Source: Entrophospora sp. SA101 (taxonomy: Eukaryota; Glomeromycota; Glomeromycetes; Entrophosporales; Entrophosporaceae). From it: DNA of 25,119 nt. The first letter of the stretch is position 1, and each line of letters starts with the position of its first letter. Shown here one piece after another: positions 3,481 through 22,860 of this stretch. The notes under the pieces were generated by a model. That model searched no databases. It saw nothing but the letters and a program-made list of their open reading frames with translations, and had not been told where the DNA came from. Where the stretch lies: assembly GCA_958430865.1 (NCBI GenBank), contig CAUDNR010004076.1, positions 41,412-66,530 on the forward strand, given 5' to 3'. A program made the translations under genes and the position numbers.

Positions 3481-4510
3481 TTAAATTAACAAACAGAAAA
3501 GAAATTTAAAATCCTTGCCACCATTCAGTTGTTGAAAAATCTCAAATAATGATTTTTCAATATCAATGATCTCTGTTGCTTTTTTTTCTGCAACTTTATT
3601 ATAATGTGAAATGTTTGCATCTTTTTCATCAAGTTTTTCCAACATATTCTTCATTGTGAGTCGTAACAATCTCTAATTTTTTATTTCAATTACAAAAGAA
3701 AAATCAAGTATTTCAATAAATATTATTAATGGATTTTGAAAATTCCATCGAAACGTAATTTACTTACTAATTCATGTGCTAGTGATGGTTGGAATGAACT
3801 ACTTTTGATATATATTAGAAAAGAAAAAAGGGATTGATTGATGTTGGCGTGAAAACCAAATTTGTGTCAATTGAAATCATCACTCGGGCCAAGACAACAG
3901 CCTATTTTATTAATTCGAAACGTATAAATAGGACTGCCGTCCCAACATTTTTTTTCGTAACCAACCATTTGTTATTATTATTAAACATGAAAAATAAACT
4001 ATATGGATATCTCAGATAGCTTAGATCGTATTTAAAATCTAACATAATTATAAATAATTTCTTCAACAAATTTACCCGATGGCAGTTTCCATTTTCTATC
4101 AGTCGACATCTGTTTATATTGTTCTCAAATTCAATCAAAGAATCTTCAGTCATCTCATTATTATCACATTCCTTAATTAAATAGAAAAGAATCAACATAT
4201 TAATAATTGAATACCAATAGTAACATTTCGATTCAAAAAGAAGTTGCTGTGCCTCATCTTGTAATCGATCAATTTGTTGACTATAACTTGTATTAATATC
4301 TATTGCAAGAGTTTATAAAAAACATCATTCAGCACATGACGTGTTGCCTTCATATATGAGGATCAAATATATTAATTACCTGCTTGACTGGCTAGATCTT
4401 CAGGACATATAGTGGAAATAACTTCATATGAACTGTGGAACCTTGCTTCATTAAGAACTTTTACACCTTCTATGACATAATTTTTCCCGGCATTTCTTGT
4501 TAAATCATAA
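3481..4510 (-). other. Unidentified cluster of minus-strand exons, possibly a decayed gene
   Basis: Several coding-like segments join in phase. One (about 4500-4380, reading NEARFHSSYEVISTICPEDL) has a GTAATT donor at 4379. An 80-nt intron leads to the next exon from 4299 (YSQQIDRLQDEAQQLLFESK). A further segment around 4172-4072 reads MTEDSLIEFENNINRC. A short piece near 3795-3765 (SSFQPSLAHEL) is followed by GTAAGT and an exon from about 3675 to 3510 (NMLEKLDEKDANISHY, then KATEIIDIEKSLFEIFQ), which has a coiled-coil look. No intact gene model connects them all, and the region around 3800-4070 has stops. The last part faintly recalls the XLF/NHEJ1 coiled coil, but I do not claim it. It lies directly upstream of the SMC5 fragment on the same strand. 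Confidence 0.35.
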
Positions 4511-4740: not shown

Positions 4741-5049
4741 CGCTGAAACAAGATTTGCAGAAGCAAAGAATTTTCAGGTGGCAAACACTGCACCCAACCC
4801 ACCCATTCCAACCCGCTTTATAAAATATCATTTTTATTATTTTTTAGTATAATATATATAAACACATGTACAAATGAAAAATACTAAAATATATAATAAT
4901 AAAATGATATGCGTTAATTGCATCAACTGAATTTTATATTAATTAATATAATATTTCATTTTGTATTTAAATATAGAAAAAATTTTGATTTGACATTTTG
5001 TCTGAATAAAAATAAATATTAATATCATAAAAAAGTAAAGAATTTGGTA
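4741..5049. other. Intergenic stretch, 3' side of first membrane-protein gene
   Basis: AT-rich. From about 4935 it is the left part of the tandem duplication and matches 7425-7540. Nothing coding is seen in 4741-4930. Confidence 0.5.
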
Positions 5050-6985
5050 TTATTCAAAAATTTCTTTACTACTACTAATACTACTAGTAGTAGAATTTTT
5101 ATTTATTATCGATTCATAATCAAAACCATTAATAGTAAAATCTTCTACTTCAAACACCCAACTTCCGGTTGCTGGAACAAATGTAATAAATTTTGTATTG
5201 GGTATATTCTTTAATCTAAGGATATGTTGTTGATATTGAGAATCTTTTGGATCTTTTATTGGTTGACGAGTAAGTTTATTTATTGCCCAACACTCATCCA
5301 ATGTGATAACAGCTCTTTTATTAAGACCACTTCCAACTGGTGGTTTATTAGAACCTTCTCCATAAACTGTACAATTTTTATCTTCAATGACAATAGTTTT
5401 ACCAAATATTTGTTCTATGGGTTCAATTTCACTAAGATCCACTGGAACAGAATAAAGAATATTACCAACATTATATTTTCCAACCGTAAAGTCCTTGACT
5501 TGTTTTAATTCTTCTTTTGGCATTTTTTTAAGATCAGAAATTAATGGGAAGCTGTAATAACCATACTTTTCTATTTTTGGTTTTTTTATTTTATGATTCT
5601 CTTTTTTCTCTTCTTCTTGTTGTTGTTTAGCACCAGCATTTGTACTGCCATCTTCCACACCGCGTGGATTTTGTGAACCACCTGGTGTTCTTTTCTTTTT
5701 ATAAAGTATATATCCGCCTACAACTGATGAAACTAATAATAATGTTGCTAATGGTGCCAGTGCTGCAATACTGTAAAATAATTGTTCATGTTTGTGTGAT
5801 ATCTTTGTTATGCTATTAGTTGCTACTGCCAAGTTATCTTTTAATATGTCTATTATAGACTCTGCAGTAATGTTTGTAGTATTATAAATAGTCTTGGTGG
5901 TGGTAGTAGTAACCGTACCAGTAGTATAAACTGTGATAGTATTAGCAACAAATTCTGTACTAATAGTATAACCTGTAGTGATAACAGTAGTATACTCTGT
6001 AATGACAGGAGTAGTATAATCTGTAACGGTAGTAGTGATATCAATCGAAACATAGGTAGAATCTTCAATAGTATTAGTAATAGTACACGTTTCCGGATCA
6101 CATGGTTGTATACACGTTTCTTCTGGACAATCTATTGGTTGGCAATTTACTGTTGGACATTCTGATGGTGTACAATCTCCTGCTGGACAATTTACTGGTG
6201 AACACGGTAACGGATCACACGATTTTGGTGGTGGACACGTTGGGCACGTTGGATTTGGTGTACACGCTGATTTTACTATAATACAACAACAACAACAACA
6301 ATAATAATTAGTTTATAATATCATCCTCAAATTCAAAAATTGTAATTTTTTAAATTTTTACAAATTTACGAAGATATCCATCTTTTTTGCATAATATAAA
6401 AAATTATAGGCCTATATTATTTATGAAAAATATGCAACTAAAAAATTATATAAAAATTATATAAGATTGCTGAGGTTCATATTTTTTCATATTTACAGTT
6501 TCTGAAATTGATGGATGACAGTTTCAATTAAAATTACTATGTCACCTTGATTCGCGAATAACAATGATAAAACACCAATTAAAATTGCGAATAATTTCAT
6601 TTTAATAATCGAATTCGATTTTTTTTAAAATTTATTCTTATTATTATTATATATATAATATATACACAAAATGGAAAATATTTTTGGTATTTATAACGAT
6701 AACTGTACAACGCATACATATTCACTTCATTATTAATATTAACATTAATATTTCGTATTAACAATCAGTTACTACTAACAAAGGCAGCCAAAATAGACAC
6801 AAGAAATTTTTATTTGGATGATTTGGCGCACTATCTGGTACGTTACTTGTTTAAGAATTTAAAGATGTTTGTTTGTTTGTTGTTGATAAAAAAGTTTTGT
6901 GCTGCTAATTCTGTGACCTGACAAAAAGGGGATTTATTTAATATTAAAATGTTGCTGTTTTTAAATGAGACTTAGTCCCCATTTT
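4935..6985. repeat. Tandem segmental duplication, left copy
   Basis: Matches about 7425-9835 in the same orientation: 3' flank, whole two-exon gene, 5' leader and roughly 250 bp upstream. Similarity is very high in the intracellular-domain exon part and in the upstream flank (6715-6945 against 9550-9800), moderate in the 3' flank, and lost in the ectodomain-coding part. The right end is cut by the MITE at 6993-7143. Confidence 0.85.
5050..6600 (-). CDS. Type I membrane protein with cytoplasmic Nup98-type autopeptidase domain (copy 1)
   Basis: Two exons, 6600-6546 and 6275-5050, joined in phase (CAAG|GTGACA ... TTATAG), give 426 residues. Residues 1-17 are a signal peptide (MKLFAILIGVLSLLF). 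About 20-82 is a Cys/Pro-rich ectodomain of irregular CxP units, and 83-160 is Thr-rich, a likely O-glycosylated stalk. One membrane helix lies at about 188-210, followed by KKKR (positive-inside), then an acidic/lysine linker. From about 256 the sequence reads [48 protein letters not shown] and [10 protein letters not shown]. These match, in order, the nucleoporin autopeptidase domain of Nup98/Nup145. The self-cleavage motif HF-S/T is D397-F398-T399 here, so the general-base His is replaced. Serine-rich tail ending KEIFE. ATG 6600 is chosen because a signal peptide follows and copy 2 shares it. Autoproteolysis is uncertain; the fold assignment is strong. Confidence 0.85.
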
Positions 6986-6992
6986 AAATATA
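6601..6992 (-). promoter_or_regulatory. Conserved upstream region of copy 1
   Basis: About 6715-6945 is nearly identical to 9550-9800 upstream of copy 2, including ACTGTACAACGCATACAT, the ATTAATATTAACATTAATATT tract and GATGATTTGGCGC. Conservation of non-coding sequence upstream of both genes makes this the likely promoter and 5' leader. It could equally just reflect recent duplication. Confidence 0.45.
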
Positions 6993-7143
6993 CAGTGCGT
7001 TAAAGAAAAAAACGGCGGTGACAAAAAATTGCATATCTCAACAATTACATAACATAATTAAATAATTTTCATCATATAATTTTGGCTACTTTTTCATTAA
7101 AAACAAAATTTTTACAAACCACCGTTTTTTTCTTAACACCCTG
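6993..7143. mobile_element. 151-bp MITE of Tc1/mariner type
   Basis: Flanked by TA on both sides (6991-6992, 7144-7145). The left end CAGTGCGTTAAAGAAAAAAA continues CGGCGGTG. The right end on the opposite strand is CAGGGTGTTAAGAAAAAAAC, continuing GGTGGTTTG. The inverted repeats are about 27 bp with few mismatches, and the interior has no open frame. It sits just past the upstream end of duplication copy 1. Confidence 0.8.
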
Positions 7144-7145
7144 TA

Positions 7146-7540
7146 TATACATATTTAAATTTAACATTTCAGAAAAAACAGATATGCCAAACAAAGTCTA
7201 TGAAGTTTATTCAGTTTCAATTTAACAATTTTAACTACATCATAGATATTGTTGACTGATCCGGATATTATTTAGGTAATAGGAAGTCAGATCTAGTATT
7301 AATGAAGATTAATATTCCGTGTTGGTATTTATTACTAATATTAAATATTTAATATTCACTATCTATTCCGTACATATGATGGGACGCATATGAAATTACG
7401 TTTCAACGAATTTATAATTCATTGATATTAAATTAATATAATATTTCATTTTATATTTAAGTGTAGAAAAAATTTTGATTTGACATTTTGTCTTAATAAA
7501 AAAATAAATATTAATATCATAAAAAAGCAAAAATTTGGCA
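7146..7540. other. Intergenic stretch between the two duplicated genes
   Basis: No gene seen. The part from about 7335 carries the block shared with 2825-2890, and from about 7425 the 3' flank shared with copy 1 (TAATATAATATTTCATTTT, then GATTTGACATTTTGTCT). Confidence 0.6.
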
Positions 7541-9465
7541 TCATTCAAAAATTTCTTTACTACTACTACTACTAGTAGAATTTTTATTTATTATCGATTC
7601 ATAATCAAAACCACTAATAGTAAAATCTTCTACTTCAAACACCCAACTTCCGGTTGCTGGAGCAAATGTAATAAATTTTGTATTGGGTATATTCTTTAGT
7701 CTAAGGATATGTTGTTGATATTGAGAATCTTTTGGATCTTTTATTGGTTGACGAGTAAGTTTATTTATTGCCCAACACTCATCCAATGTGATAACAGCTC
7801 TTTTATTAAGACCACTTCCAACTGGTGGTTTATTAGAACCTTCTCCATAAACTGTACAATTTTTATCTTCAATGACAATAGTTTTACCAAATATTTGTTC
7901 TATGGGTTCAATTTCACTAAGATCCACTGGAACAGAATAAAGAATATTACCAACATTATATTTTCCAACCGTAAAGTCCTTGACTTGTTTTAATTCTTCT
8001 TTTGGCATTTTTTTAAGATCAGAAATTAATGGGAAACTGTAATAACCATACTTTTCTATTTTTGGTTTTTCGATTTCCTTTTTTTCTTTTTCTTCTTCTT
8101 CTTCTTTTTCTTTTTGAGTCTTGGCATTTGTACTGCCACGCCCTATACTGCGTAGAATTTGTGAACCTCCTGACTTGTTTTTTCTCTGTTGATAAAGCAT
8201 ATATCCACTTGCAACTGATGCTGCTAATAATAATAATGTCAATGGTGCTAATGCTACAACACTAGTAAATAATTTTTCAACCCTGTATGATATCTCTGTC
8301 ATGCTATTAGTTGCTACTGTCAAGTTATAATTTAATATGTCTATAATAGTCTCTGCAGTAATATTTGTAGTAGTATATTCAGTGCTGGTATTAGTAATAT
8401 AATCTGTACTAGTAGTAGAATCTGTAGTAGTGCTAGTAATATAATCAGTACTAGTAGTATATTCAGTGTCGGTATCAGTAGTATAACTTGGATTCTCAAC
8501 AGTGGTAGATTCTGTATTGACAATAGTGGTATAAATCGGACTAGTGACATACTCTTCAATATTAGTAGTAGTACACGGTACCGGTGTACACGATACCGGC
8601 GGTACACAATCATGTGGTATACATGATACCGGTACACACGCCACTGATGTACACGATACCGGTGTACACGATACTGGTACACACGCTTGCTGTGTACACG
8701 ATACCGGTATACACGGTTGCGCTAGACAATCCTCGCACGGACACGGTGGATCTGGGTCACAACAGGTGGTACCACAGGTCGTTTGAGGTGGTACGCACTT
8801 TTTTGGTTCTGGTGTTATATCACAACATTTGGAATCACAGGCGACCGTTCGAGTTGCGGAACAAATTAGACAACAGAATTCACCACAGAAGGTGCTGGTC
8901 ACCGCACAATCCTCTGGCTGTGCCAATGTCGGTGTCGGTGTTGGTGTCGGTGACTCTGGTTCTGGTGTTGGTTCTGGTGTTGTTTCTGGTGTTGTTTCTG
9001 GTGTTGTTTCTGGTGTTGTTTCTGGTGTTGTTTCTGGTTCTGGTGTTGGTTCTGATTCTGGTGTTGTTTCTGGTTCTGGTGTTGTTTCTGGTGTTGGTTC
9101 TGGTTCTGGTGTTGGTTCTGGTTCTGGTGTTGGTTCTGGTTCTGGTGTTGGTTCTGGTTCTGGTGTTGGTTCTGGTTCTGGTTCCGGTGTTGGTTCTGGA
9201 TCTTGCGGGTGTGATTTTACTATGATAATAGGAAAACAATTTTTTATAATAATAATAATAATAATAATTAGAAAATAATTTTTATAATAACATCCACAAA
9301 TTCAAAAATTTTAAACTTTTTATAAATTTGTTGATATTTTTTCATAGTTTAAAGTTTTTGAAATTGATGGATGACAGTTTCAATCAACATCAATTTATCA
9401 CCTTGATTCACGTATAACAATGATAAAACACAAATTAAGATTATGAATAATGTGAATAATTTCAT
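7541..9465 (-). CDS. Type I membrane protein with cytoplasmic Nup98-type autopeptidase domain (copy 2)
   Basis: Exons 9465-9402 and 9219-7541, joined in phase across a 182-nt GT-AG intron (CAAG|GTGATA), give 580 residues. Signal peptide at about 1-18 ([18 protein letters not shown]). Residues 25-115 are low-complexity Pro/Glu/Thr repeats (PEPTPE and TTPE units). About 126-238 is a Cys-rich block beginning [11 protein letters not shown] and passing into six-residue units such as CTPVSC and CVPVSC. Then comes a Thr/Ser/Tyr stalk, a membrane helix at about 339-361, a charged linker with a Glu/Lys run, and the Nup98-type autopeptidase domain from about 412, almost residue-for-residue the same as in copy 1. 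The cleavage motif is D553-F554-T555 instead of HFS/T. The open frame has no ATG before the Cys block, which makes the upstream signal-peptide exon necessary. Compared with copy 1, the outside is longer and unrelated in detail. The ligand and role are unknown. Confidence 0.85.
8570..8720 (-). repeat. Coding repeats of about 18 nt in the Cys-rich ectodomain
   Basis: Repeated GTACACGATACCGG-like units on the plus strand encode tandem CxPVSC hexapeptides on the minus strand. Such repeats can expand and contract and may explain part of the length difference from copy 1. Confidence 0.6.
8930..9200 (-). repeat. Coding minisatellite (12- and 18-nt units) for the Pro/Glu/Thr stalk
   Basis: About five units of GTTGTTTCTGGT (8976-9040) encode TTPE repeats on the minus strand. 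About five 18-nt units of GGTTCTGGTTCTGGTGTT (9095-9190) encode PEPTPE-type repeats. They are in frame with the signal exon and the Cys-rich block. No counterpart exists in copy 1, which goes from the splice junction straight into the Cys-rich part. Confidence 0.85.
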
Positions 9466-9835
9466 TTTGATAATTGAATTCATTTTTTTAATTTTTTTTA
9501 AAAATTCATTCTTATATATACAAATGGGAAAATACTTTTGGCATTGATAATGATAACTGTACAACGCATACATCCTCACTTCATTATTAATATTAACATT
9601 AATATTTCGTATTAACAATCAGTTACTACTAACAAAGTCGGCCAAAATAGACACAAGAAATTTTTATTTGGATGATTTGGCGCGCTATCTGGTACGTTAC
9701 TTGTTTATTTAAAAATTTAAAGATGTTTGTTTGTTTGTTGTTGATAAAAAAAGTTTTGTGCTACTAATTTCTGTGACCTTGACAAAAGGGATTTATTTAA
9801 AATGACCTTTATTTTAATATACGGGTCATGATCAA
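9466..9835 (-). promoter_or_regulatory. Conserved upstream region of copy 2
   Basis: 9550-9800 corresponds to 6715-6945. It holds the same GTACAACGCATACAT, GATGATTTGGCGC and TGTTTGTTTGTTGTTG blocks at the same spacing. It is a probable promoter and leader by position; no core element can be named with confidence. Confidence 0.45.
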
Positions 9836-10185
9836 TAGTTGCCCAATTCCCATTACTGTGTATAACTCATCATGAAGAACATTTTTAATAAAATTTCGAA
9901 TTTTCTTACAATTTAAATAATGATTGCTATATTAATTTATTTATATGTAATAGGTAGTGTATATCAAATCAAAACTAGTTTATTTATATATTAGATAGTA
10001 TTTGTATTAGATTCTGTTCAGTTCGAATTTTGTTGATTTGTTCGGGGCATTATATATAAATAATTTATTTAAAAACAAAACAATCTAAAATTTGCTATTT
10101 GCATCACAAGATGACACTCCACATAATTGATTGCCAGGGCGCTTTCTATTCTCATGTTGTGCGTGAATTTGGAATCTGCGTCAAT

Positions 10186-10213
10186 TTTGAAATTCACGCG
10201 CGTGAAATTCAAA
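10186..10213. repeat. 28-bp near-perfect palindrome centred on CACGCGCGTG
   Basis: The arms TTTGAAATTCACGC and GCGTGAAATTCAAA are complementary apart from one base pair. It is unusually GC-rich at its centre for this DNA. It could be a binding site for a dimeric regulator or a hairpin remnant of a transposon; nothing in the sequence decides between them. Confidence 0.6.
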
Positions 10214-10738
10214 TTAGCCAATCAGAATTTTGTATTCAAACACCCCACCCCAAAATTTAATTACTCACTCATATAATAATAATAATAAATAGTTGCTCTG
10301 GTTTCTCCTCCTGTTCTTGTACCTGATGTTAAAAGTCTGTAGCCAATTTAAAAAGGTAGTCAATATTGTGAAATAGTAACGGGATTCATTACCAGAATTA
10401 TTGTTACACAGATTAAATTTCAAAAATTTATCTTCAGTTTAATATCATCTAATTTCTTTATTTGTAAATGGTTATGTGTCCTTTTTGTTCTTATGATCAA
10501 GAAATATCAAAGAGGTATTTTGGCTATTAGAAACAGTAATGTTTAGACTACTTTTCATGATTAGTCATCAAATATGTTACTTTATAATTCATGGGAATGT
10601 CTCGAGTTAAAAAATATATGACTTTCAAATAAATAACTTTCAAATAGGTTACTTTTGACCATGTAGCTTTGTAATAATTAATTAATTAATTAATTAATAA
10701 TAAATAAAATAACATTTTTTAAATTATTGGATCCCCCG

Positions 10739-10800
10739 GCAACCCGTTTCCCGACAGGATGTTTCCCGACATCGATTTCCCGATAAGACAATCTCCCGAC
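10739..10800. repeat. Short tandem repeat with CCCGACA core, four imperfect 15-16 bp units
   Basis: Successive units read GTTTCCCGACAGGAT, GTTTCCCGACATCGAT, TTCCCGATAAGACAAT and CTCCCGACATC. GC-richer than its surroundings. Function unknown. Confidence 0.7.
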
Positions 10801-11134
10801 ATCTCAAAATTATGTAGTAAAATAGAAATTTAGAATTTATTCTTCTATATATATAAAATACAGCCGCGTTTCAACTATGCAATTTCATTTTTGAATATCT
10901 TATATGATAACCAATTTCTGTATGTGTTAACACATATTTTCTTATTTTTTGACATATTAAAAAAAAAAAGAGTTTTTGAAAAGAAGTTTTTGACAAAAAA
11001 GTCCGTGCAATAAAATTTACCTCAACTTTTATTTTATTTTTTTTTGCTTTTGTAATTATTTTTTTATTTTAATAAATAACTAAATTTCATTGATATTATA
11101 TAAATCAAATTTTTAAATCAGTTTTTAAATTAGA

Positions 11135-11409
11135 ATGACTGCATGGGAGGAAAATACTCTGCCCAAAACTTTTATGAGTATACCTATATCTTTAATTCTA
11201 GCTGATTATTATCTTGAAGCTGCATAATTTTGCAGAACGAACTAATTACCCTTGTCAAAGCACTGAGCCATCATCTACTAGAGAATGATGATTATGGCTA
11301 CGGTTGGTTCCATAACTTACAGAAGCAAACTCGTATGACAAATAACTCGGGTAATTCTCCTATAATCACAAAAGCAACCCCACAAGAAAAGGTATTTGCT
11401 ACACTATAA
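11135..11409 (+). other. Two short coding-like pieces, unidentified
   Basis: An ATG at 11135 opens 30 codons (MTAWEENTLPKTF, ending in EAA) closed by TAA at 11225. Directly after it, TTTTGCAG at 11228-11235 looks like a splice acceptor for an open stretch to TAA at 11407-11409. That stretch reads NELITLVKALSHHLLENDDY and then GWFHNLQKQTRMTNN. The base composition differs from the flanks and looks coding. No donor linking the two was found, so this may be the decayed end of a gene. No family recognised. Confidence 0.3.
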
Positions 11410-11449
11410 GAGGGACATGTCTACTTCAAGGGAGGCATCGCTTATAACA

Positions 11450-12010
11450 TCACATAGTTGTGCAATGTGTTTAAAAAATTGGAGTTTTTTACAATATATA
11501 TTGTATTAATATTAGATTTTAAAAGAATTTATATATACGTTTTAATAAAATTTCTTACATGGTATTTGAGTATCTTGAAAAAAAAAGCATCTAAATTAAA
11601 AAAATATCAATGATTTGTTATATAGTTGGGTAGCATTAACTATATGCAAAAATTTACAAACCTTTGTTTATAATATACATAGTTGTGCGATGCATTCTTA
11701 AATTTGAGTATTAGTATCTTCTCATCTAAATATTAATGGCATGTTAAATAAATCTTTATGAATGATATAGGATAAATTTTTTTACATAGTTGTGAAATAC
11801 GTTCTTAAATTTGAGCATCCTATCATTTAAATTAAACAAAAATATTGGTAGCATTAATTATAATAAAACTTACATATCTTTACAAATGATACACGATAAA
11901 TTTTCTACATAATGCAATGCATTCTTAAATTTGAGTATTAGTATCTTCTCACCTAAATTAAACAAAAATGTTGATGATTAAAGTAGCATTAATTGTATGC
12001 GAGAATAATA
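11450..12010. repeat. Degenerate tandem repeat, period about 107-121 bp
   Basis: Units start at about 11451, 11677, 11784 and 11905 with ACATAGTTGTGCRATG, followed by CATTCTTAAATTTGAGTATT, TCTTCTCATCTAAATTAAAC and GTAGCATTAA. The first interval (226 bp) equals about two diverged units. Non-coding. Confidence 0.75.
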
Positions 12011-12104
12011 TAATTTATAAACCATTCTAAATCATTGATCCAATATTAACTTCCAAATTGTGGTACAAATATTTAAACAGATTTGAAAAAAAAAATTTCA
12101 TTTA

Positions 12105-12862
12105 CAGTCAGACCTCATAAATGCGCGCTATGTCTTGATCCCAACCTCAGGACTTAGTGATAAATGCACACCCTCCATACTCTGGTATTTTTTCAGTCCC
12201 ACTCATATGAAAACTCCCTCCATAAATGCATCCCACGTGACTAATGTATAAAATTCATCGTGTAACTATATAGGATAAATTTAGAAATCATCGGCAAATT
12301 TTTGATTTGATTGGATAATTTCCAATATGTAATTTCATTACTTTGTGTCACTAAATGCTTTCATAAAATGCAAGTTGAAGAAAATATTGTCTGTGAGGTT
12401 CCAGATGATGATAAAATAATCAAAGAACTTTGCAGAAATATATAAAAATAAAATGAATGTACCTGCTGACAATTTTGAGAAGATGACATTAAGCCTTGAG
12501 GAAGCATTAAAGGTCTTGAAACTGTACATTCATTTTTATTACAGCAAGAAAAAATAATGCTACAAACAAATAAAATTGGTTAATAAAATTGAAAGATATA
12601 TCAATATAAAAAAAGTAAATTCATCAAAACGAACTACAATGGATAGCTATTTTAGTATTACTGTATTTAAAATATTGTGACCAATGAAATTGCTTCTCTC
12701 CATAAATGCACGCTGTGCCAAGTTTAGATAATTCAGTTCGCAACTATCTTTTTCAAAAAGATCCAACTGAATACCAGAAACAAATTGAAGAGTTTTTTAT
12801 TGTAACTGCCGTTCATCGTGTCCCTTGGTCCCAAGGGGGGTGCATTTATGGAGGTCTGACTG
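12105..12862. mobile_element. pogo/Tigger-like DNA transposon remnant, 758 bp, TA target duplication
   Basis: TA at 12103-12104 and 12863-12864. The ends are inverted: left CAGTCAGACCTCATAAATGC; right, read outward-in, CAGTCAGACCTCCATAAATG, differing by one gap and few bases. The motif CTCCATAAATGCA recurs inside both ends (about 12162, 12222, 12700 and the terminus at 12840-12855), as expected for repeated transposase-binding sites. The interior carries plus-strand coding traces (VPDDDKIIKELCRN; then NFEKMTLSLEEALKVLK at about 12469-12520). These resemble the C-terminal tail of pogo-type transposases, where a segment of this kind follows the DDE domain. No catalytic domain remains, so it is non-autonomous. 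Confidence 0.75.
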
Positions 12863-12945
12863 TATATTTTCATTGACATTTTTGATGTATCACATGATTA
12901 TATGTTTTTGCATGTTAAGGATTACGAATATAATATTTATTGCAG

Positions 12946-13060
12946 TGTTGACAAATGACTTGTGAAATGACCTAGACATATAATATTTTATTATTAATTT
13001 CATATACCAAATGACCTTGGTCATTTGAAAAACAGCAAATGACATTGTAATTTGTCAACA
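12946..13060. mobile_element. Small 115-bp inverted-repeat element
   Basis: The left end TGTTGACAAATGAC (12946-12959) and the right end (13047-13060), read on the other strand as TGTTGACAAATTAC, match in 13 of 14 bases. A perfect 9-bp-arm hairpin, CAAATGACC-TT-GGTCATTTG, lies at 13008-13027. Target duplication is unclear. It could be a MITE or a foldback remnant. A separate direct repeat of a TTGCAWTTATTT...TTTACAATAAAA block follows at about 13101-13185. Confidence 0.5.
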
Positions 13061-13364
13061 TATATGATGATAAATATGATTTCATATTAGTTATAGTTTA
13101 CAATCAAAGTGTTGCATTATTTACAATAAAACATTGCAACTTTTGGAACAAAATGTTGCAATTATTTCTTTACAATAAAATGTGGTATACTTTTGTCCAG
13201 CATAGCTTCGCCCAATCAATAATGGATATTTTCCATTTTAATATAGATTATTATAATTAATGTAAGCTGCATAAAATAATAAAAATAATAAATTTAATGA
13301 TTATAAACACTTGCTGATAACTCTTGTAATTTTAAAGATGTGTTTTTTCGATATTTTTACAACC

Positions 13365-13515
13365 TAAATTATCATCACCATCAACTGCAGTGAGAAATGC
13401 CCTTAATCCTGGATCCACACCCACAATCAATCTATTCCTGCGGATTCTTTATTGAGTGAATATATACCAGCCTTCATTCTGAAAGATCTTCATTCCTAGG
13501 TAACATTCTTTCTCA
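13365..13515 (-). pseudogene. Degraded TnpB/Fanzor-like nuclease fragment (RuvC-I motif)
   Basis: The minus strand reads KECYLGMKIFQNEGWYIF, then after a stop/frame break NRLIVGVDPGLRAFLTAVDG, then DDNLGCKN and a stop. A [IV]-G-[VI]-D-P-G-[LV]-R-x-F core with the first catalytic Asp is the RuvC-I signature of TnpB relatives, in particular the DPG form seen in eukaryotic Fanzor proteins. Only this motif and a short lead-in survive; zinc finger and RuvC-II/III parts were not found. The assignment rests on one motif and is tentative. Confidence 0.4.
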
Positions 13516-15666
13516 GTAGAGGGCAATTGTGGTTTTATAATGATTTCTAATATAATTATATTTTTAAAATTAAAAAAAATGATTTTTATCAAACAGACAT
13601 GAATGCTTTTTTCTTCTTTCAAATCTAAAATATATGAAATGGTGCTAATAAAACAATAATATTTTTAAATACAATTCATGATAAAATAATTACAAATCTT
13701 TTTATTTAAATTAAATATTTGATCATAAAAATCTTCTTTCCATAATATACTTTTACATTTATCGGGAAATTATGTTCTTGATATGATTATTTCCTTGTCT
13801 TTGTCGTTTATTTTTTCTTAAACTTTCCTCAGGATTTTTATTTCAATGAACACTGCTTTCATCAAAATCAGATACAGTATGATTGATCAACTAGGAAATA
13901 TCCAACTTGATATGAAGAAAGAGGAAGAATAAAGAACCTTTCTCATTGTCATTATTTTCATCAATCAATTCATATATACTCATCCCAAGTATCTAGTTAA
14001 ATTTCTTTGATTTTTAGAAATATTTATTTCACTCAAATCAAATTCCTTCCAGGACAAGTGATCCATAAATCTTCTATGCATTGTGCTGGATCATTCATAA
14101 AATCTTGTGAATTAATAATGCTAATTGTGAATATAATTTTTTAAAGCTGAAACAATATTCATTTTTATGTAGGTGTACCGGAACCCTCTTGTATATTTAA
14201 AGAAAAATAATTTTTATATCAGTCAAAACTTCATCTTTACACCATCCAAATCTCTGATTTGGTATAAATAATCTTCTTCTATATTCAATTCTATATTAGT
14301 TATAGTGGTATTCAAATATTTTCTCTAATTCTGGCTCAGAACACCCAATATTTATGATAAATATTCCAAGGGATTCTTCATTTTCGCCCTCCTTTATTTT
14401 TTATACCAGTATATAATATGCAAATTTCCTAAACTGATCTTTGAACAAGTTTTCTTCAGCATTAAGATAACCATCCAGTGCGTTGTGAAACATGACTTTA
14501 AACCTTTAAAAAATGCTCTTGATTCACACCTATAATCCTTTTGTAGTAATATAGTACACGAACAATATAATCTCAAGAATAATTGATAAAACATTGATTT
14601 TTAATCAATAGGGTTGTATCGGCCTTTGACATTTGTGTACAAAAAAATTTATAATTATTATTGTCAACGATTAATTTTTGGGGGAGAGAATTTAATCAAT
14701 GACAATAAAAATAAAGGATCAAAATTGAATGGGGTATTTATTTACCAGCGCATAGTTTTGGATGCGGTTTAATTATTTTCAAGTCTCAAGAAAAAAAAGT
14801 TTTTGCTAAAATACATGGAACTCGACTTGTTTATTATATACTGTATTGGACATAATGTTACTACTTACTCAACTTTGTTGATCAATACAAATTAAATAGC
14901 GCGCACGTTGAAATACATCGCAACAAAATATTAATAATAAATAAGATAATGCCAAGAAGAGAGTAACAAACGTCATTATTAATACTAAAGGTGTTGTGAA
15001 ATTCAATCAAGAAATTTGCAAAATTGATAACTTGGAATCTTTATTTGCTTAACTCAAAAAAGGTGATTTTAATAAAGGCTTTAATCTCGATTCGATTTAA
15101 TTTTAGTTGAAAGCTTTAAGATTGACGCAAAAGAAATAAAATAGCCCTTTAAATTAATTGTATCTAAGCACAACAAGTGACTTGATGACGTGCGAGTTAA
15201 ATAATCACAATTTTATGTTTAAAGTCATGGACACAAATAAAATGTATAATAAATAAATAAAATTCATGATTGTTTTATCTTTTTATAACATACTGGATTT
15301 TTAAATGGCAATCTTGGAATGAATGGATATCTGCGGATCGCATCGCTAATAACAAGGAATTTATAATGAAAATAACAAGCAGAATATGGCACTGCTGTTT
15401 GTTAATGGTAAATGTGAGTTTAATGATGAACAGTTTCAAAGGTAGTAACAGCATCATTAATTGGAATACATGGTGTTGGAATGTTCTCCTTCAACTTCTT
15501 TCTCGTTGGTTGGAATAAATGATGTTTATCCGTTGCCATCTCAACATCTACTTGTCATTCATTGGTTGATAATTTGTATGGGATCATCCAATCAAATAAA
15601 AAAAATAAAAAATTGGTCACATGAAATTGAATTTCCTTTACTATATTTATTACATATATAAAAATT
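13516..15666. other. Gene-poor stretch with decayed coding scraps
   Basis: No intact gene. Minus-strand scraps around 14540-14270 shift frame repeatedly (FHNALDGYLNAEENLFKDQF, then ENEESLGIFIINIGCSEPEL, then RRRLFIPNQRFGW), and MNDPAQCIEDLWITCPGRN appears at about 14094-14040. They may be one decayed gene, perhaps belonging with the TnpB-like motif further along the same strand, but this is a guess. 15260-15660 has overlapping short frames on both strands without recognisable products; its right end must include the proteasome-gene promoter. Confidence 0.4.
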
Positions 15667-17002
15667 ATGAGTCGTGGTAAGGAACTCTTTTTGTATTGTT
15701 AATGATTATACTAGCACCAGCAAATTTGATCTTTTTATTGTTGAAAATCCTTAGGTTCATCAGCAGGTTACGATCGTCACATTACAATTTTTTCACCAGA
15801 AGGAAGACTTTATCAAGTTGGTATGATGTTGAAAAGTGTAAAAAAAAAATTGAAAAAAGAAACTAAATTTAACTGTATAGATGGCAATTATTGATTTCGA
15901 ATGATTTTTTTTTAATGTAAAATAGAATATGCCTTCAAAGCAATATCAAATTCTGGTATAACATCTGTAGGTGTTCGAGGAGATGACAGTGTAGTAATTG
16001 TAACACAAAAAAAAGTTCCTGTAAGTTATCAATCTACTTTTTTCTCTGGATATAAATATAAATATATTAATTTTAAAATAATTAAATAATTAATTAATGA
16101 ATTAGGACAAGTTATTAGATCCATCAACTATTACACATGTTTTTCAACTAACACCATATGTTGGATGTGTTATGACAGGGTTGATCGGTAAATTTAGAAT
16201 ATTTAACATATTATTATTAATAATAAAAATGGTAAATTAGAATATTTAACATATTATCATTAATAATAAAAATTTCTTTATTTTAACGAATAAACTTAAT
16301 TTATTATTGAAGCGGATGCACGTTCTCAAGTTACTCGTGCAAGACAAGAAGGTGCTGAATTTCGATACAAGTTTGGTTATGAGATCCCAACTGATATGCT
16401 TGCAAAACGTGTAGCCAATATCAACCAAGTATACACACAGCATGCTGCTATGAGACCATTGGGTGTTTGTATGTTATTGTTTATTAAATATTATTTTAAA
16501 AAAAAAAAACTTTGAAATATACATTTTATAATAATATATATATATATATATATATCAGCAATGATCTTGATCGGATACGATGACGAGAAAGGTCCACAAC
16601 TTTTCAAATGCGACCCAGCTGGTTATTATGTTGGATACAAAGCTACTGCAGCTGGAGCTAAACAGCAAGAATCTTTAAATCATTTGGAGAAAAAACTTAA
16701 AAAAGATCCTAAGTTGAATTATGAAGAAACTATAGAAGTATGTTTACATTACACGCACACACATATATATATTACAGATAAATATTGTTATTATTATATA
16801 TTCAAATTAATTAATTACTAATTATATACGTATATAATATATATTATAGTTAGCAATTACTACACTTTCTACAGTACTATCTGCCGATTTTAAATCAACT
16901 GAAATTGAAGTTGGCGTTGTTACAAAAGATAATAAGAAATTTCGAACATTATCAGTTGATGAAATAGATAGTCATCTCCAACGTATTGTTGAAAAAGATT
17001 AA
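15667..17002 (+). CDS. SCL1: 20S proteasome subunit alpha-1 (alpha type-6, yeast Scl1)
   Basis: Structural subunit of the outer alpha ring of the 20S proteasome, which gates entry of unfolded substrates to the proteolytic beta rings; cytosol and nucleus. Seven exons in phase: 15667-15676, 15755-15820, 15926-16020, 16106-16187, 16313-16468, 16559-16737 and 16850-17002, giving 246 residues, the usual length. All introns are GT-AG; the one before exon 6 ends in a TA microsatellite. The N-terminal alpha-subunit signature reads [20 protein letters not shown] (residues 8-27). Other conserved stretches are [15 protein letters not shown] and RPLGVSMILIGYD, then [18 protein letters not shown] 15667 gives the [12 protein letters not shown] start typical of this subunit; the first exon is only 10 nt. 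Its stop codon lies 59 bp from that of the convergent TTC4 gene. Confidence 0.95.
16536..16556. repeat. (TA)n microsatellite at an intron 3' end
   Basis: About ten TA units directly before the TATCAG acceptor of proteasome exon 6. It replaces a normal pyrimidine tract. Confidence 0.8.
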
Positions 17003-17061
17003 AAAATTTTTAATAATAATATTAACAATGATAATAAATAAAATGATAATATTGATATAGT
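17003..17061. other. 59-bp tail-to-tail intergenic gap
   Basis: Separates the stop codons of the proteasome and TTC4 genes. It is too short to hold two separate 3' UTRs, so the transcripts very likely overlap. AATAAAATGATAATAT near 17035 could serve as a polyadenylation signal on the plus strand. Confidence 0.6.
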
Positions 17062-18452
17062 CTAACTTTTATATTTTGATATAAATTCATCATGAAAACT
17101 TCCTTTATCTGATAATATGATGAAACTAGGAATACCATTCTTAACAATGTATTTGGGATGAGATAATGCCTCTTTTAGAATACATTTCTTTCCAATCTTA
17201 ATTAATTTTGGTTTAGCATCCATTCCTCCACTATTTGATGGATCATATTCAAAATAAATTTGTAAATTATTTAATGATCTATATCTGCCATCAACGTCCC
17301 AGGGTGCAGGATTTTCAAAAATTACTTCTAAATGATCAAGAAATGTAGTATCTTCATTAAAAGCTGCAACAAAATCTGACTCTTTGTATTCTGGATATAA
17401 AAAAAAAACAGGCCATATTAATTGTTGTGATTCTGGATGAAGATGAACAGAATGTGGTGAGTCAGGAGCATTCGAAGTTGATTCCATTTGAATATCGCGA
17501 ATCTTTTCAAAAATAATTAAAAGTATTATTATTTTGTAGTTGTTGCAGTTATCGATTGAAATAAAAAATAAAAAACCTTTATCGCCTTTTCCAATGCATT
17601 TTTTTCTTCTCTTTTTTTTAATTCCAATTCTAATTGTTTTCGTCGTTTCTCGTCCAAGACCTTCTTATGGTTTATACATTTTTCCTTCTCTTTTTGCATG
17701 GCAAGGTTATTTGGATCAATCTAATTTTTACTTTTGTTTATAAATTATTACACATACGTAAATGGCTAATAATATAAATGAATGATGAATGGCTAGCATG
17801 TACCAAAAGTGCATGATCACAACAATCCAAAGCCTCATCTAATTTATCAAGCATATATAAAGCTTTTGCAGATCGATAGAATGCTTTGATATTTTTAGGA
17901 TTGATTTTTAATGCCTTCGCACAATCATTTAAAACTCTACGATAATTTTCTATAAACAGAATATATATATATTAATATTTTACTAGCCCACCAATAATGA
18001 TCAATTATTGTTTATACTAACGTAATTCCAAATTGACAGCAGCTCTATTAGTTAAGCAAGCTTCAATTATTTTATTATCTTTGCAATCAGTATCCAATGC
18101 CTTAGTGTAAAAATTTATTGCATCTTGATAATGCGATTTGCCAGATTTGAAACATTCATTTCCTTGATTCTTAAAATTTTCTGCAATTTCTATTTCAACA
18201 TTCAATAACGAGTATAAGGATGATTATGATGTTAAAATAATCAATTATCTAATAAATAAATAAATATACACCTTCTGGTGGTCCATCATAAATCAAAGAT
18301 TGTAAAGCTGACAAAGTAGAATTTTCTTCTCTTTCATCCTCAGGCAGTTCAGTCATAAATAATGGAACTTTGTTGATTTCTTTGAAAAGATTCTCATCTT
18401 TGATTTTACCTAAACCTTCCTTAAATCTTGGTCTTTCTGGCATGTTGGGCAT
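17062..18452 (-). CDS. CNS1: Hsp90 co-chaperone, TPR protein TTC4/Cns1
   Basis: TPR co-chaperone that binds the C-terminal EEVD tails of Hsp90/Hsp70. In yeast Cns1 is essential and helps fold elongation factor 2. Five exons in phase: 18452-18272, 18189-18022, 17949-17804, 17720-17577 and 17502-17062, giving 359 residues (human TTC4 387, yeast Cns1 385). Residues 1-60 hold the family lead (LFKEINKVPLFMTELPED, then LIYDGPPEEIAENFK). TPR motifs span about 62-166: KNQGNECFKSGKSHYQDAIN, ACLTNRAAVNLEL, then NDCAKALKINPKNIKAFYR and LDEALDCCDHALL. A charged helix (about 175-213) follows, and then the C-terminal wheel domain from about 225 (WPVFFLYPEYKESDFV, PAPWDVDGRY, IPSFIILS). ATG 18452 is preferred: MPNMPERPRF begins the conserved part, and the upstream in-frame Mets lie in AT-rich leader. 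Divergent from the cap methyltransferase gene. Confidence 0.93.
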
Positions 18453-20300
<1,848 letters not shown>

Positions 20301-22212: not shown

Positions 22213-22361
22213 TTAATTCATCAATAATAATTTCTTTATGAAAAAAAAAAAATTTGAAAACTTTGTATTAATTAAATTAGAAATCAAAAGTCAACTTTTT
22301 AAATAGAATTACAAAAGCTAAAAATAACTACAAGGTAGAATATTAAGTGAGGGTTATTCAT

Positions 22362-22498
22362 TCATAAGGCTAAATCTAATTCTTCCATTTGACCATTATC
22401 ATCACCATCATCATCACCATCATCATCATCATCATCATCTGATACTTTCATTTGATATTCATCATCACCACCATCATCATCACCACCATCACCATCAC

Positions 22499-22561
<63 letters not shown>

Positions 22562-22860
22562 TGCCATCATCATCATCATCAACATCAAGATCATCAGCAT
22601 CAGCATCAGCATCAGCATCAGCATCAGCATCAGCATCAGCATCAGCATCAGCATCAGCATCAACATCAACATCAACAACATCAACATCACCTACATCACC
22701 TACATCATCATCATATTCATGATCATCTCCTCTTCTTCATCATAATAGTCATCACATTATGCTCATCTTCTGAATTGTAGGCTGCATAATGTTGACAAGT
22801 TGGTGCATGATAATGATTACCATCGTTACAAATATTTTCATAATCACCAAGACAACTGTC
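22362..22860 (-). pseudogene. Acidic low-complexity protein, last exon, frame broken
   Basis: After a plausible acceptor (TTTAAACCAG) the minus strand from 22860 reads DSCLGDYENICNDGNHYHAP and TCQHYAAYNSEDEHN. The frame then shifts near 22750; in the next frame come YYDEEEE and, after a further shift, DHEYDDDVGDVGDV. A long Asp-rich tract of DA and DD repeats follows, ending EELDLAL and TGA at 22364-22362. The acidic tail is built on a GAT/GCT microsatellite. Because that microsatellite is open in several frames, only the non-repeat ends are real coding evidence. It may be an intact gene with sequencing slips or a pseudogene. Confidence 0.35.
22393..22700. repeat. Compound trinucleotide/hexanucleotide microsatellite
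   Basis: (ATC)n with CACCAT interruptions from about 22393. There is a near-pure (ATC) run of about 20 units at 22498-22562 and a (GCATCA) run of about 11 units at 22596-22662, then (ACATCA) units. Open frames across it on both strands (Ile, Ser-Ile, Met-rich) are artefacts of the repeat. Confidence 0.95.

Follow-up and report, generated by a model that had tools for sequence, protein, structure and literature searches.

How does a domain of the nuclear pore come to stand behind a signal peptide and a membrane helix? The question is raised by a stretch of 25,119 nucleotides (nt) of Entrophospora sp. SA101 (the window, C1571:41412-66530, where C1571 is contig CAUDNR010004076.1), which carries two genes, named here copy 1 and copy 2, whose products end in the C-terminal autopeptidase domain (APD) of Nup98. 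The anatomy of the genes is plain in the DNA, as are the kinship of their APD with the Nup98 of the same fungus, its conserved core, its predicted fold and the exchange of its cleavage-site His for Asp. A nuclear-pore domain has been fused to a membrane protein of the secretory-pathway type; the ordinary gene has been kept, the cutting residue is gone and the fold is apparently kept. With a probability of roughly 0.55, these are lineage-specific type I membrane glycoproteins of Entrophospora-type fungi, namely surface glycoproteins with a Nup98-like APD as docking tail.

The initial annotation of this DNA had proposed two genes with introns of 270 and 182 nt, sharing a signal peptide, a Cys- and Thr-rich ectodomain and one membrane helix. 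Its coordinates are right, and removal of the intron, predicted from sequence only, puts the signal exon of both copies in frame with the long exon. The shared architecture holds for both genes of the window, but the contig carries three intact genes of this kind, the third (copy 3) lying outside it (Table 1). For open frames as long as those of copies 1 and 2 (420 and 586 codons), the probability of arising by chance in the local base composition is ~2e-16 and ~1e-22. A gene-model artefact, in which the signal exon is foreign or splicing runs from the APD tail into the following gene, and no signal-membrane-APD protein exists, is very improbable. It would accord with two SA101 gene models, P0007, which joins the APD tail to an exon of the next gene, and P0001, in which exon 2 of copy 1 is joined with the last part of an APD of the copy-2 type. 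Nevertheless, P0001 has the same exon-2 acceptor (..VKSAC), both models look like merged neighbours, and exon 1, donor and acceptor recur in copies 1, 2 and 3. Besides, the only Met residues of copy 1 are 1 and 270, the latter within the APD, so that removal of exon 1 would leave no Met from which a membrane protein could start.

The identity of the domain, claimed to be of the Nup98/Nup145 type in proteins lacking FG repeats, is borne out by profile, sequence match, tree and predicted fold alike. In the profile search that had been suggested, PF04096 scores 154.8 and 152 bits against a curated cut-off of 28.4 bits; among solved structures, the best sequence match is the Chaetomium Nup145 APD (E 8.4e-28), and the predicted fold is that of an APD. 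The KPPxGxGLN motif is kept, with the variant KPSVGSGLN in copy 3, and 29 of the 30 columns that are invariant in six Nup98s are kept in the copies, the sole exception being a change of Arg to Lys. FG repeats are absent from all three membrane copies, each of which has a single FG dipeptide, located within the APD; four Nup98s from the protein searches (P0009, P0010, P0012 and P0013) contain 34-45. The Gle2-binding motif PF21240 had no match at E<=1 in either window protein.

At the cleavage site, the sequence is VQHFTTYGLEYES in the ordinary Nup98 of the fungus and VEDFTI[N/S]GFDYES in the three membrane copies. All three have Asp-Phe-Thr where active S59 autopeptidases have His-Phe-(Ser/Thr), so that they have lost the His but retain the nucleophile position. 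Since the cleavage His is Asp, the autopeptidase of the membrane copies is probably inactive. His is found in six of the eight other APDs of the alignment; the exceptions, P0008 (Asn) and P0009 (Glu), stop at the Phe or one residue later, as does P0010, which has His, and all five that extend at least 9 residues beyond the site have His. Other fungi, too, have Thr after the cut, going by the alignment for Cetraspora P0012 and P0013 and by the title of entry 5hb6, 'Chaetomium thermophilum Nup145N APD T994A mutant fused to Nup145C N'. The ordinary Nup98 of this fungus, encoded on contig C480, likewise has HF-T and not HF-S, as in those two Cetraspora proteins. The piece extends past the cut into the Nup96 N-terminus for about ten residues, where TTYGL has changed to TINGF or TISGF.

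Related to the membrane part, signal peptides and helices were assigned by hydropathy only. Each copy is hydrophobic at its N-terminus and has a single internal helix, which agrees, together with the gene models, with the plan first proposed. The APD should face the cytosol, mainly because a signal peptide and a single helix precede it.

The genome (101 Mb, 2123 contigs) contains at least eight PF04096 matches in the profile search: one ordinary Nup98-Nup96 gene on C480 (L018), with FG-rich open reading frames (ORFs) upstream and Nup96 downstream (PF12110, E 2.7e-47), the three intact membrane copies on C1571, and four decayed fragments. The decayed version, with internal stops, lies on C409, C607, C1046 and C1676 (L019-L022); these loci are 100% identical across the 7.3-9.0 kb compared and may be one locus assembled several times or very recent copies. 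Fusion by assembly error was rejected in view of the helix-APD join in three copies here and in gene models of E. candida. On C1571 itself, near-identical segments pair 5001-13263 with 23189-31462 (99.5%), 8658-14756 with 41412-47507 (97.8%), 13590-18889 with 48833-54127 (98.6%) and 26846-31462 with 41412-46017 (99.1%).

The APD DNA of the copies is 76-77% identical to that of the fungus's own Nup98 gene across ~440 bp. When 10 kb of C480 was compared with C1571:5001-66530 (E<=1e-20), the sole other match comprised 132 columns at contig position ~31.4 kb, away from these genes. In a maximum-likelihood tree of 11 APDs, with 5 of its 8 inner forks open, the copies group with their own Nup98 (92/94, just under the star level of the tool) and Cetraspora Nup98 falls outside. 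This grouping suggests, with modest support, that the duplication took place after the Entrophospora and Gigasporaceae lineages had separated. The stem of the membrane copies (0.38) is longer than the Nup98 branch (0.21); where copy 1 and the own Nup98 differ (54 positions), Cetraspora matches Nup98 at 14 and copy 1 at 7. A donor of the membrane half did not emerge, as a search of the same genome with the Thr-rich, helix and linker part of copy 1 found no relative free of an APD; its matches, at least seven, are the three intact and four decayed loci of the family.

Searching a database of 5.8 billion proteins with copy 1 yielded seven homologues, all gene models of Entrophospora sp. SA101 or E. 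candida. Six of them (P0001-P0006) have a hydrophobic helix followed by a whole or partial APD and, with the three intact copies and the decayed version on four contigs, they substantiate the proposal of a family. P0001 is 98% identical to copy 1 and merges two tandem copies; P0002-P0006 carry part of the APD and resemble the decayed version, and P0007 has only the end of the APD, joined to another gene. In both E. candida models found, the APD is partial. As these searches depend on shared 5-residue words and are subject to length limits, matches confined to Entrophospora do not show absence elsewhere, and the direct genome search covered a single eukaryotic genome, that of the window. Two further protein searches, with 5 and 6 hits, added P0008-P0014, none of which has a hydrophobic stretch at membrane level (top 19-residue mean 1.18); P0011 and P0014 are fragments in which FG is scarce or absent. 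No relative was found in a scan of viral contigs.

Selection was estimated from synonymous (dS) and nonsynonymous (dN) divergence. Between the APD of the copies and that of the own Nup98, dS is 0.84 and dN 0.22, and about 44 of the 69 nonsynonymous differences are assigned to the membrane branch by branch share, below the neutral expectation of 78-117 if 30-50% of dS fell on that branch. Between copies 1 and 2, dS is 0.021 and dN 0.005 for the APD with its tail, as against 0.454 and 0.344 for the N-terminal part, with a sharp shift at the border of linker (dS 0.494) and APD (dS 0.024); the flanks of both genes are ~90% identical on either side. This drop next to diverged N-terminal parts suggests that the APD has been subject to gene conversion, or else was switched between copies in the assembly. 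Switching among near-identical copies is a possible cause of the homogeneity, and P0001, in which the N-terminal half of copy 1 is followed by an APD identical to that of copy 3 across 144 residues, would fit either process.

These figures also bear on whether the proteins might be a transient chimera of no settled function, a captured domain now being copied and decaying. The decayed version on four contigs, the partial APDs of E. candida, the recent near-identical segments and a dN/dS of ~0.76 for the N-terminal part (copies 1 vs 2) are what it would lead one to expect. It is nonetheless quite unlikely in view of three open copies of 426, 580 and 576 codons, an APD core kept at 29 of 30 columns, and nonsynonymous differences below the neutral expectation.

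In the pore, according to the available parts of three sources, the APD has two tasks: it separates Nup98 from Nup96 by cleavage, and it anchors Nup98 either to the N-terminus of Nup96 or to the Nup88/Nup82 propeller (PMC11148069, PMC5653651, PMC8907234). For the membrane proteins, a piece like the fungus's own Nup98-Nup96 (APD, cleavage site and about ten Nup96 residues) would have come to lie behind a signal peptide, an ectodomain and a helix. The product would enter the secretory pathway with the APD on the cytosolic side, where the domain would no longer cut itself and the Nup96-like tail would remain attached. As cutting is probably lost and the fold is kept, docking is the likely remaining role, and the APD could act purely as a docking module, like that of Nup98 in its contacts with the N-terminus of Nup96 or with the Nup88/Nup82 beta-propeller. 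The intracellular signalling or anchoring module of a cell-surface protein that the initial annotation suggested is thus a putative role. It might in this way provide a constant inner adaptor for a fast-changing, probably wall-facing glycoprotein, in an architecture like that of the Wsc/Mid2 wall sensors. We put forward only tentatively, at somewhat less than even odds, that a family of cell-surface glycoproteins has as its inner adaptor the inactivated APD, including the Nup96-like peptide built into it, with gene conversion homogenising this adaptor and the outer parts diversifying.

The same anatomy could belong to a protein of the nuclear envelope or endoplasmic reticulum, whose lumenal domain would be perinuclear and whose APD tail would dock at pores, as a lineage-specific anchor in the pore membrane or as a competitor for Nup98 sites. 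Such a role is consistent with the kept APD core, with the function of the APD in the nuclear pore complex as an anchor to Nup96 or Nup88 (PMC11148069, available part) and with Plasmodium Nup221, which lacks an HFS site and has two predicted membrane helices (PMC6062611, available part). We judge it unlikely, since the Pro-Glu-Thr stalk and the diverging Cys/Thr-rich ectodomain look more like wall-facing fungal glycoproteins (a judgement made with no profile match), FG repeats are absent, and the attached Nup96-like tail could occupy the binding groove. The surface glycoprotein with a docking tail is favoured over the nuclear-envelope tether.

Several points weigh against this preferred reading. 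The charge bias around the helix is small and weak on its own (Lys plus Arg in the 15 residues after and before it: 4/2 in copy 1, 3/2 in copy 2). A Pfam scan of both proteins gave the ectodomain no match above any cut-off (sub-threshold matches in copy 2 include Enhancer of rudimentary, E 0.003, and Trypan_PARP, E 0.01), so that the word 'surface' rests on composition and the signal peptide. Because the estimate of selection also covers whatever time passed before the fusion, it is support, not proof. As the E. candida models have only a partial APD, the family may not be essential. PF10168 (Nup88/Nup82) had no match in the genome, where the controls gave none either.

The membrane copies offer a natural test of APD roles other than cutting, and a rare instance of a different membrane protein that carries a nucleoporin module. 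As Entrophospora is an arbuscular mycorrhizal fungus, they are also a candidate family of fast-evolving surface proteins in plant-root symbionts, in which few receptors are, to our knowledge, known. Regarding the neighbourhood, an ORF of 136 amino acids (aa) at window 3902-4312 (minus strand) lies beside copy 1 and also beside the third gene. P0007 fuses this ORF with a further part that presumably resembles a degraded Smc5 ATPase start, for which Pfam gave no such match at E<=0.001. A long simple repeat at window 22328-22780 has frames that can be read as poly-His from one strand and as poly-Asp from the opposite strand. Ordinary neighbours are present as gene pieces at 2-571, 16516-16821, 17062-17664 and 18777-19121 (sulfate permease, proteasome subunit, Cns1/TTC4 wheel domain, mRNA cap methyltransferase).

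Table 1. Features of the membrane copies (window positions, except for copy 3)
Feature	Position	Strand	Remarks
Copy 1 gene	ATG at 6600, stop ends 5050	-	spliced protein 426 aa
Copy 1 exon 1	6546..6600	-	start codon and most of signal peptide, MKLFAILIGVLSLLFANQ
Copy 1 intron	6276..6545	-	270 nt, GT..AG, phase 1; sequence only
Copy 1 exon 2, incl. stop codon	5050..6275	-	
Copy 1 ectodomain, residues 22-187	5770..6267	-	13 Cys, 40 Thr, 17 Pro, 2 N-glycosylation sequons
Copy 1 membrane helix, residues 188-206	5713..5769	-	hydropathy; then YILYKKKR
Copy 1 Nup98-type APD, residues 258-398	5137..5559	-	profile, sequence, tree, predicted fold
Copy 1 GAT codon, Asp397 for cleavage-site His of HF-T/S	5140..5142	-	sequence and alignments
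Copy 2 gene	ATG at 9465, stop ends 7541	-	spliced protein 580 aa
Copy 2 exon 1	9402..9465	-	start codon and most of signal peptide
Copy 2 intron	9220..9401	-	182 nt, GT..AG, phase 1; sequence only
Copy 2 exon 2, incl. stop codon	7541..9219	-	
Copy 2 ectodomain	8270..9211	-	stalk of Pro-Glu-Thr repeats, followed by parts rich in Cys and in Thr; from residue 22 on, 25 Cys, 73 Thr and 3 N-glycosylation sequons
Copy 2 membrane helix, residues 339-357	8213..8269	-	hydropathy
Copy 2 Nup98-type APD, residues 414-554	7622..8044	-	profile, alignment
Copy 2 GAT codon, Asp553 for cleavage-site His	7625..7627	-	sequence and alignments
Copy 3, intact	C1571:13707-15619		576 codons; outside the window

Compared with Nup98-Nup96/Nup145 (PF04096, MEROPS S59), the APD of these proteins is alike in sequence, predicted fold, KPPxGxGLN motif and the Phe and Thr around the cleavage site. 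The membrane copies differ in having Asp for the His of HF-T/S, in lacking FG repeats and in being fused behind a signal peptide, an ectodomain and a helix, with only a short Nup96 peptide following. Yeast Nup116 and Nup100 are extra APD paralogues not followed by Nup96; these are FG nucleoporins without a membrane helix, whereas the present proteins are membrane proteins without FG repeats. Both yeast paralogues bind Nup82 in vitro (PMC8907234, available part). Among the open-licence titles and beginnings of abstracts listed, no report of a signal-membrane-APD protein was found, Plasmodium Nup221 being the nearest; literature on the Entrophospora genome and on wall sensors in mycorrhizal fungi yielded nothing on these genes apart from the wall-sensor review PMC9148135. 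In the available part of its description, that protein is of the Nup98 family, lacks HFS, has predicted membrane helices and is treated among FG Nups (PMC6062611), and it is a precedent for membrane helices in a member of this family lacking HFS; it differs in having two helices, and a plan of signal peptide and Cys-Thr ectodomain is not mentioned in that part. Finally, Wsc and Mid sensors consist of a Ser/Thr-rich ectodomain, a membrane region and a Rom2-binding tail (PMC9148135, available part). For both window proteins, the Pfam scan gave no WSC match at E<=1; by hydropathy they follow the Wsc/Mid2 plan, with a signal peptide, a Thr-rich ectodomain that has a Cys-rich part as in the Wsc type, a single helix and a predicted cytosolic tail, which is an APD in place of the Rom2-binding one.

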